NCBI RefSeq assembly: GCF_900102085.1
Contig: NZ_FMVM01000013.1
Coordinates: 124,001 to 188,000 of the forward strand
Direction: 5' to 3'
Length of the DNA stretch: 64,000 nucleotides
Origin: Paenibacillus polysaccharolyticus
GTDB taxonomy: Bacteria > Bacillota > Bacilli > Paenibacillales > Paenibacillaceae
In this document: in pieces, positions 21,782 to 54,398 of the stretch
How positions within the stretch are numbered: the stretch's first letter is position 1
Layout: each line of letters starts with the position of its first letter
Translations under genes and position numbers: made by a program
The notes under the pieces: generated by a model
Database searches by the model: none
What the model was told of the DNA's origin: nothing
The model's input: only the letters and a program-made list of their open reading frames with translations

Positions 21782-21934
21782 AATTTACACATCAACGGAG
21801 ATGACAGAAAAAATCTGTAGAAGCGAAGCGGTCGCCTTTATCACCGGATTTTCCCCTTTAGTAAAGGGAATTAAAAAATCTGGGGATAACAGCGATTGGA
21901 AGATTATTCTGTCATCGTAGTGTCTGTGTAAATT
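21782..21934 (+). repeat. Structured intergenic repeat, copy 1
   Basis: First of five copies. Outer stem AATTTACACA/TGTGTAAATT (perfect 10 pairs), second stem GATGACAGAA/TTCTGTCATC (perfect 10 pairs), third AATCT/AGATT, then GCGAAGCG and TCGC against CAGCGAT, inner stem TTATC-CCGGATTTT against AAAATCTGGGGATAA, and apical CCCTTT/AAAGGG. It sits between the convergent YitT-type gene and cls, after the former's terminator. No coding capacity. Confidence 0.85.
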
Positions 21935-23617: not shown

Positions 23618-23646
23618 TTGTATTTATATAACTAGAGTCGTATAAT
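23618..23646 (+). promoter_or_regulatory. Sigma-A-like promoter for the arg cluster
   Basis: TTGTAT (23618-23623), 17-nt spacer, TATAAT (23641-23646). It lies upstream of repeat copy 2, so a leader of about 280 nt would carry that element before argC. The region is AT-rich with partial palindromes (GTATAATAATAC), but I could not assign an ArgR box with confidence. Confidence 0.65.
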
Positions 23647-23709
23647 AATACACAAATATGCATAGAAGCGACGGAATTGTCTGCTCAAGCTTTGATGATA
23701 CGTATGAAC

Positions 23710-23870
23710 GAGATGTTTGCACAAAAAACGGAGAGGACAGAAACAAACCTGGAAAGCGAAGCGGTCGCTTTTATAACTGGATTTTCCCTTTAAGAAAGGG
23801 GATGAAAAAATCCGGGGATAACAGCGAATGAAAGGTTGTTCTGTCATTGAAGTGCTAGTGCAAATTTCTC
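23710..23870 (+). repeat. Structured intergenic repeat, copy 2 (argC leader)
   Basis: Outer stem TTTGCAC/GTGCAAA, extended by GAGA/TCTC; GGACAGAA against TTCTGTC; AACCT/AGGTT; GCGAAGCGGTCGC; GGATTTT against AAAATCC; apical CCCTTT/AAAGGG. It lies between the probable arg promoter and the argC GTG, so it should be part of the argC leader RNA. Confidence 0.85.
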
Positions 23871-26578: not shown

Positions 26579-26732
26579 ATAAACGAATATAGTGGAAGAG
26601 GCGGAATCGATTCTGTAGAAGCGTAGCGTTCGCATTTGTCTCCGGGTTTTCCCTTTGGAAAAGGGGAATCGAAAAACCTGGAGACAACGGCGATCGAAAG
26701 AACGATCCGATTCTGGAACGGCTAACGTTTAT
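26579..26732 (+). repeat. Structured intergenic repeat, copy 3 (most diverged)
   Basis: Outer stem ATAAACG/CGTTTAT; second stem CGGAATCG/CGATTCTG (one G-U), which replaces the GGACAGAA/TTCTGTC stem of the other copies; TTCT/AGAA; TAGAAGCGTAGCG; inner stem TTGTCTCCGGGTTTT against AAAACCTGGAGACAA; apical CCCTTT and AAAGGGG. It differs most in sequence yet keeps every helix, so changes are compensated. Confidence 0.85.
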
Positions 26733-27706: not shown

Positions 27707-27941
27707 CATAACACAATAACGAAGAGTTCAGTACAGACCTGAAAGCGATAGAGCATAACGAAGAGGACAGAATTAAACCTGGAAAAGCGAAGCGCTCGCC
27801 TTTATCACCGGATTTTCCCTTTAGGAAAGGGAATCAAAAAAATCTGGGGATAACAGCGATTGAAAGGTTATTCTGTCATCGGAGTGGTTGGTGCGATAAG
27901 AGCTTGAAGATGATTTTGGAACCGGAGTGACCAGTGTTATG
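27707..27941 (+). repeat. Older repeat copy split by copy 4
   Basis: CATAACAC (27707-27714) and GTGTTATG (27934-27941) pair perfectly and flank two half-elements: a left arm (27711-27752: ACAATAACGAAGAG, GACCTGAAAGCGA) resembling the left arm of copy 5, and a right arm (27903-27933: TTGAAGATGATTTTGG, CCGGAGTG) resembling the right arm of the other copies. Copy 4 lies between them. This looks like one element inserted inside another. Confidence 0.6.
27753..27894 (+). repeat. Structured intergenic repeat, copy 4 (argB-argD gap)
   Basis: Stems: GCAT/GTGC (short outer), GACAGAA/TTCTGTC, AACCT/AGGTT, AGCGCTCGC region against CAGCGAT, TTATC-CCGGATTTT against AAAATCTGGGGATAA, apical TTCCCTTT-AGG-AAAGGGAA. 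It is flanked by GCGATAGAGC (27745-27754) and GCGATAAGAGC (27893-27903), a near-perfect direct repeat. Confidence 0.85.
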
Positions 27942-49255: not shown

Positions 49256-49329
49256 GCTTCTACACTTCATTCTTTAGAGGGTTTTTAAGACTTATATTTG
49301 CCTACTTCAATATATAGGTTGAACTTTCA

Positions 49330-49480
49330 TTTACACAATAACGGAGAGGACAGAAAAAACCTGAAGAAGCGAAGCGCTCGCCTTTATCCCCGGATTTTCC
49401 CCTCTGGAAAAGGGAATCCAAAAAATCCGGGGATAACAGCGATCGGAAGGTTATTCTGTCCTTGGAGTGTTCCGTGTAAA
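49330..49480 (+). repeat. Structured intergenic repeat, copy 5
   Basis: The best-paired copy. Outer TTTACAC/GTGTAAA, then AGGACAGAA/TTCTGTCCT (9 perfect pairs), AACCT/AGGTT, GCGAAGCGCTCGC against CAGCGAT, inner TTATCCCCGGATTTT/AAAATCCGGGGATAA (15 perfect pairs), apical TTCCC/GGGAA. It lies after the MFS terminator, in the convergent gap with the VanW gene. Confidence 0.88.
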
Positions 49481-49514
49481 CAACATGTATTTCAACTTAT
49501 ATTTCCACCTGAAT

Positions 49515-54239: not shown

Positions 54240-54398
54240 ATTGTCTGATTTAATGCGTTGCAACTTATATAGTTTAAACTTCGAATGGAAAAATCATAAT
54301 CCGTACAAGCTAGACATATACTAAGCTGGCATGTTCAGGGAATGATTCGGGGCATTCCGAATCGGATGCGCTTCAAAACTAAAGGCGGTGACAAACGG

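Follow-up and report, generated by a model that had tools for sequence, protein, structure and literature searches.

Several described systems resemble the repeat family analyzed in this study. RUP of Streptococcus pneumoniae, known together with IS630-Spn1, is a short non-coding repeat present in about 100 copies, with IS630-like ends and a TA target (PMC2229807, PMC3049150). The Correia repeat enclosed element, CREE (PMC2649163, PMC10969869), is described as about 150 bp long with inverted ends, a TA target, an RNA hairpin, strain-specific insertions and inversion. ISY100, of the IS630/Tc1-mariner group, moves by cut-and-paste at TA and duplicates the TA, according to PMC2170065, and a preference for CTAG is named in the title of Tenzen and Ohtsubo 1991, which that source cites. 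BOX elements are intergenic and folded and may be co-transcribed (PMC3049150).

The Paenibacillus repeat differs from each of these systems. The BOX and ERIC repeats, the latter also being intergenic, folded and possibly co-transcribed, have ends, sequence and hosts that are unlike its own. Unlike ISY100, it carries no transposase. Compared with RUP, host and sequence are different, the repeat studied here has a longer covarying core and undergoes in-place inversions, and no intact cognate element was found in the six element-bearing genomes checked. Host and ends also differ from those of CREE, for which RNase III and IHF properties are described. The listings from searches of an open-access library contained no account of the repeat for Paenibacillus; the family is one of IS630-related MITEs not described there, with an unusual conserved core.

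The window, i.e. the whole stretch of 64,000 nucleotides analyzed, covers C28:124001-188000 of a 6.5-Mb genome (G000) that is available as a 34-contig draft, and the relatives of its ArgB are from Paenibacillus. The gap between argB and argD (27707-27941) contains one hairpin repeat enclosed by the arms of another, as is seen in the window sequence itself. The four sequences named in the preliminary description lie where it placed them (CATAACAC at 27707-27714, GTGTTATG at 27934-27941, GCGATAGAGC at 27745-27754 and GCGATAAGAGC at 27893-27903). Its proposal that one repeat sits within the arms of a second family member is borne out by single, unnested elements with similar arms, which occupy the same gap in five of the 28 named relatives. 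The parts of the composite are as follows:

27707..27754, plus strand: left arm of the outer element (CATAACAC...GCGATAGAGC), which aligns with outer left arms in relatives
27745..27754, plus strand: GCGATAGAGC, proposed earlier as the left target duplication, reread as outer left-arm sequence
27755..27890, plus strand: inner element, core only, own TATAAGTTGAAC ends missing, at most 94% identical to other genomic copies
27891..27941, plus strand: right arm of the outer element (...GCGATAAGAGC...GTGTTATG), from the alignment with relatives
27893..27903, plus strand: GCGATAAGAGC, proposed earlier as the right target duplication, reread as outer right-arm sequence

The composite (239 nt) has a predicted folding energy of -67 kcal/mol (z = -3.6), and none of 200 shuffled sequences folded equally well. 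A total of five direct-repeat copies were found in the window, where the four others are 61-86% identical to the reference copy:

21794..21922, plus strand: copy 1, core
23727..23854, plus strand: copy 2, core, in front of argC; missing from the nearest sister genome (G087), probably deleted there
26597..26717, plus strand: copy 3, core, before argB; several relatives have hits at a corresponding distance from their argB-argD copy
27757..27886: copy 4, core, argB-argD
49313..49501, plus strand: copy 5, complete element carrying a terminal inverted repeat at either end; core at 49340-49469

The counterparts of copy 3 in several relatives show compensated stems, as if kept. Also before argC, GTTGTATTTATATAACTAGAGTCGTATAATAATACACAAATATGCATA (window 23618-23668) varies hardly at all among the 14 genomes compared and is perhaps the arg promoter and operator. 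The site at window position 54267 (GCAACTTATATA/GTTTAAAC) resembles an element end without an element being there, and its counterpart in the sister genome (L091 14485-14577) is a truncated copy of the element.

In G000 itself the composite stretch has at least 41 matches, a figure based on scoring the best 40 of 158 initial candidates. The element spans 183-192 bp, or about 230 bp (230-234) when an optional 40-bp hairpin is included; the repeat is short (50-500 bp) and multicopy, and it is non-coding as judged from the open reading frame list for part of the window. The hairpin module (AAAGCTTTCTGAAAGAAAGCT) lies in the core and is present or absent between orthologs (L206 versus L164; L346). 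With at most one mismatch, TATATAAGTTGAAC occurs 96 times in G000, against seven occurrences of the reversed-pattern control. Terminal inverted repeats with both ends at most three mismatches from TATAAGTTGAAC were found in 39 of 53 copies, i.e. 60 copies less seven nested, arrayed or composite ones. Only 19 of these 39 copies have TA on both sides, an observation against an IS630-type MITE. CTA was found on the left of 17 and TAG on the right of 14, figures that carry no background control for CTAG. Both sister species contain a tandem array with a spacing of about 221 bp (G000 C15:26171-26907, L335; G087 C30:2820113-2820725, L155), and the array members printed from G087 have a different pair of outer arms. 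One locus (L333 1350-1738; G000 C23:307347-307735) has 389 bp between the same ends, with a different interior and no core hit. Remnants of about 71 bp (L309 3499-3565, L315 from 1013 and L330 from 1506) have a junction as if a CGGAG-CGGAG deletion had occurred between the arms. The plasmid and phage collections contained no match to the repeat.

The mobility of the family, which the preliminary description had proposed, is supported by comparisons of filled and empty sites between sister species. The genomes used for comparison correspond to P. xylanexedens DE0019 (G087), P. amylolyticus 27C64 (G041) and P. barcinonensis CECT 7022 (G043). Thirty copies were fetched from G000 and 30 from G087; eight G000 loci could be paired with a G087 locus already fetched, and 22 other copies from G000 and 17 from G087 were queried by their joined flanks. 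By script label, 16 of the 22 G000 copies are empty in G087 and/or G041 (three had no usable locus) and nine of the 17 G087 copies are empty in G000 and/or G041 (two had none), with the L163 rows removed from the table as tandem-array artefacts; some of these labels turn out on reading to be deletion relics (e.g., L131, L153 and L161), and elsewhere the flanks have changed. Six sites are clean (L144, L146, L154, L159 and L162 in G087; L113 in G000), where an empty X-TA-Y corresponds to a filled X-TA-element-TA-Y, with TA on each side of TATAAGTTGAAC...GTTCAACTTATA. For L162 the left TA is visible in the G000 ortholog and G087 reads TG. Beside L135, G087 has a second copy, likewise inserted at a TA, and this site is empty in G000 as well as in G041. 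By comparison, therefore, the ends are the 12-bp TATAAGTTGAAC/GTTCAACTTATA and insertion occurs at TA with duplication of the TA. Two more sites (L130 and L148) fit TA apart from one or two bases that differ in the TA or next to it. Other sites are less favourable to this reading: L129 can equally be read as a 9-bp duplication, the junction is blurred by flank changes at L116, L117, L120, L121, L124, L127, L134, L135 and L136, and a flank is missing in a relative for L118, L122 and L137.

A cognate element of 1162-1167 bp with two reading frames was identified in the genus. It belongs to the IS630 family, as its DDE half matches NF033545 at 140 bits (cut-off 100) and Pfam DDE_3. In G006 this element starts with TATAAGTTGAACTAAAGATT, which agrees in 20 of 20 terminal bases with the right terminus of both L131 and L148 (seven copies were printed); the ends of the repeat are thus shared with an autonomous element. 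The IS630 elements are mostly flanked by CTA and TAG. They have repeat-like ends in G006, G052, G059 and G066, and one such end in G080; G059 and G066 contain both the repeat and an intact cognate element, whereas G084, G039 and G000 contain apparent relics. In G000, where RUP would lead one to look for an intact cognate element in the same genome, there is only the apparent relic, two short fragments beside a partial end (C6:52.7-53.2 kb).

Some observations do not sit easily with this element as the motor. A DDE_3 search of G000, G087, G041, G043 and the single-contig genomes G021 and G023 found no intact IS630 transposase, although G000 and G087 hold insertions absent from the other two genomes. 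Twenty-one of 75 genus genomes are DDE_3 positive; seven of these belong to the 44 genomes whose argB-argD match is strong, and 14 do not. Of 18 DDE_3 loci (from 30 fetched), five have matching ends on both sides, one has a match on one side and twelve have none, some of which carry other ends such as TATAGACCGCAATTAA. No longer autonomous element was found in G000 among end pairs up to 3.5 kb apart (at most one mismatch, outside the listed elements), and the unpaired or unusual ends there were further copies, shortened remnants or ends with no core hit, with no transposase-bounding pair noticed. The presence elsewhere in the genus of an IS630 element with matching ends nonetheless favours the earlier suggestion of a transposase supplied in trans as the probable motor, and the transposase of this IS630 element would then move the MITE.

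The argB-argD comparison comprised 29 gaps, namely the window and 28 of 80 named loci, which were classified by their length and by core hits; four of the resulting labels were then revised by hand (under the length rule, three composites with an extra hairpin had counted as nested and one 154-base gap lacking a core hit as single). Seven gaps have no element, five have one element, 15 have the compact composite seen in the window and two have a fuller nest in which the inner element lies inside the apical loop of the outer one (P. amylolyticus 27C64 and sp. RGIG5677). The relatives therefore do not all carry the same composite; had they done so, this would have spoken against the account in the preliminary description. 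In the gene tree two single-element species fall within a mostly composite clade, which counts against the IS630-MITE account at this site and could be explained only by loss, by recombination or by several origins. The inner copy of the compact composite starts at ATAACGAAGAGG and has lost its terminal ends, and in the window (27755-27890) no TA remains at either of its junctions, which is also unfavourable to a MITE insertion here.

Nests with the inner copy in the apical loop of the outer copy were found at argB-argD in G041, G068 and G019, and elsewhere at L049 (G011), L145 (G087) and L119 (G000). The outer copy of L049 occurs unnested in three relatives, and the G087 ortholog of L119 (L150) has lost part. 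The inner copy is flanked by TA on both sides in L049, L095, L145 and L119. Of 70 aligned copies, 47 have a TA in the apical loop, a count made without a control, and the loop is therefore a ready target.

Copies have also been inverted in place with their copy-specific arms kept, as observed for the second copy in L126/L141 and for L164 (G087) and L206 (G000) compared with L207 (G041). A variant in one arm frequently has its match in the other. According to PMC8604942, arms are matched and spacers inverted by template switching between inverted repeats, and PMC10969869 describes inversion of the Correia element. Two other candidates were set aside: L135/L196, labelled as inverted by the script, is in G087 a second independent TA insertion together with a deleted old copy, and L114/L149 is inverted with no clear copy-specific letters in common and was not counted.

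The TA duplication, the ends TATAAGTTGAAC...GTTCAACTTATA and the 20 terminal bases common to the IS630 element together identify the family as IS630-related MITEs. We place the probability of the joint reading, with TA insertion, movement in trans, nesting in the loop and later trimming or inversion, at about 0.85. The IS630 transposase, acting in trans, would cut the MITE out and paste it in, and the apical loop of a family copy (CCCTTTAGAAAAGGG-like), where a TA is often present, can take up a second copy. The argB-argD composite would be such a loop nest whose junctions were trimmed later, the inner copy having presumably lost its ends and the outer copy its tip. After insertion, copies change through deletion between short direct repeats, and template switching during replication is probably the best explanation for in-place inversion and for the matching of the two arms.

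This reading has to be weighed against others, beginning with the flanking direct repeat of about 10 bp from which a target duplication had been proposed. Although ten of eleven positions agree in the window, the exact GCGATAGAGC/GCGATAAGAGC pair was found in just two of the 29 gaps, with one mismatch in a third, and is missing from the 12 remaining compact composites; as we read the alignment, the two sequences fall on AGCGAAGCG in the left arm and GGATAACAGCGAT in the right arm of the outer element, and clean empty sites display TA. They are therefore no target duplication, and a true 10-bp duplication is hardly credible; its absence from the alignments, the second outcome that the preliminary description had named as refuting, removes the duplication only. 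The presence and absence differences could instead be losses of old copies. Copy 2 was apparently lost in G087, and its absence there was rejected as a virgin empty site since G069 retains an apparent arm remnant; L116 and L117 in G087 look deleted between short repeats, and the 71-bp remnants at three loci have a similar CGGAG junction. Yet single-TA sites empty in both other genomes (L159 and the second copy beside L135, L135/L196) make it improbable that losses rather than new insertions account for the differences. The compact composite, for its part, could have arisen by recombination or template switching in which a hairpin tip was swapped for the whole core of another copy. The missing TATAAGTTGAAC ends and junction TA of the inner copy (27755-27890) would suit such a swap, as would the arm matching and spacer inversion reported in PMC8604942 and the in-place inversions within the family. 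At the same site in G068, however, the inner copy (L095) retains recognisable ends, the right one diverged, and two TA, and ends and TA are retained in nests elsewhere (L049, L145 and L119). We consider the swap rather unlikely, and trimming after loop insertion is our first choice of the two routes.

The conserved core raises the further possibility that the repeat is chiefly a putative functional RNA, a regulator or processing site under selection, with mobility being incidental. The core of about 130 nt is predicted to fold stably (z = -5.3 for copy 5), two-sided compensatory changes occur at 16 of 28 predicted pairs (70 copies aligned of 102 eligible), and there are conserved letters among the unpaired ones. 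The core lies along the direction of transcription in 32 tandem gene contexts versus four among 36 (p = 2e-6; 18 versus two in G000 alone), where neighbours were taken from open reading frame calls at 57 loci including orthologous pairs, with three array loci dropped. The core model has hits in 79 of 109 relatives, of which 13 belong to other genera and have at least 1-9 copies each (at most 29 candidates were scored per genome). Among 78 loci of more distant species there were 26 core hits, three of which are reverse-strand echoes, and eight distant-species hits begin no more than 80 bases from where the ArgB match ends; of 18 flanks printed from these loci just two, both in L292, show clear TATAAGTTGAAC ends by eye. 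Against a chiefly functional RNA, sister species gain and lose copies, two-sided changes can come from template switching alone, and no terminator-like site was found within copy 5. Rfam gave no match at gathering score in the window, only two chance-level hits (E 3 and 3.7), and its covariance models gave none up to E 0.5 against five loci. A chiefly functional RNA is thus possible, although we do not favour it over IS630-related MITEs. Given its fold, its orientation and its spread, the core may nevertheless predate the mobile form and may act as RNA, as judged from sequence comparison. A more tentative proposal, which we think doubtful, is that the core is an undescribed structured RNA of Paenibacillus and its order that acts within transcripts in a single orientation, and which gained IS630 ends in part of the genus and so became a mobile, self-nesting regulatory RNA spreading through operons.

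If the core were indeed a working RNA, the family would represent a genus-wide mobile RNA element without an Rfam match. Template switching can mimic the two-sided changes that are usually taken to prove RNA selection, and the family is therefore suited to telling both apart. As it stands, the family provides a natural series for a bacterial MITE across closely related species, in which copies insert, nest, disappear, flip in place and come to match in their arms, and a likely motor has been identified for it.
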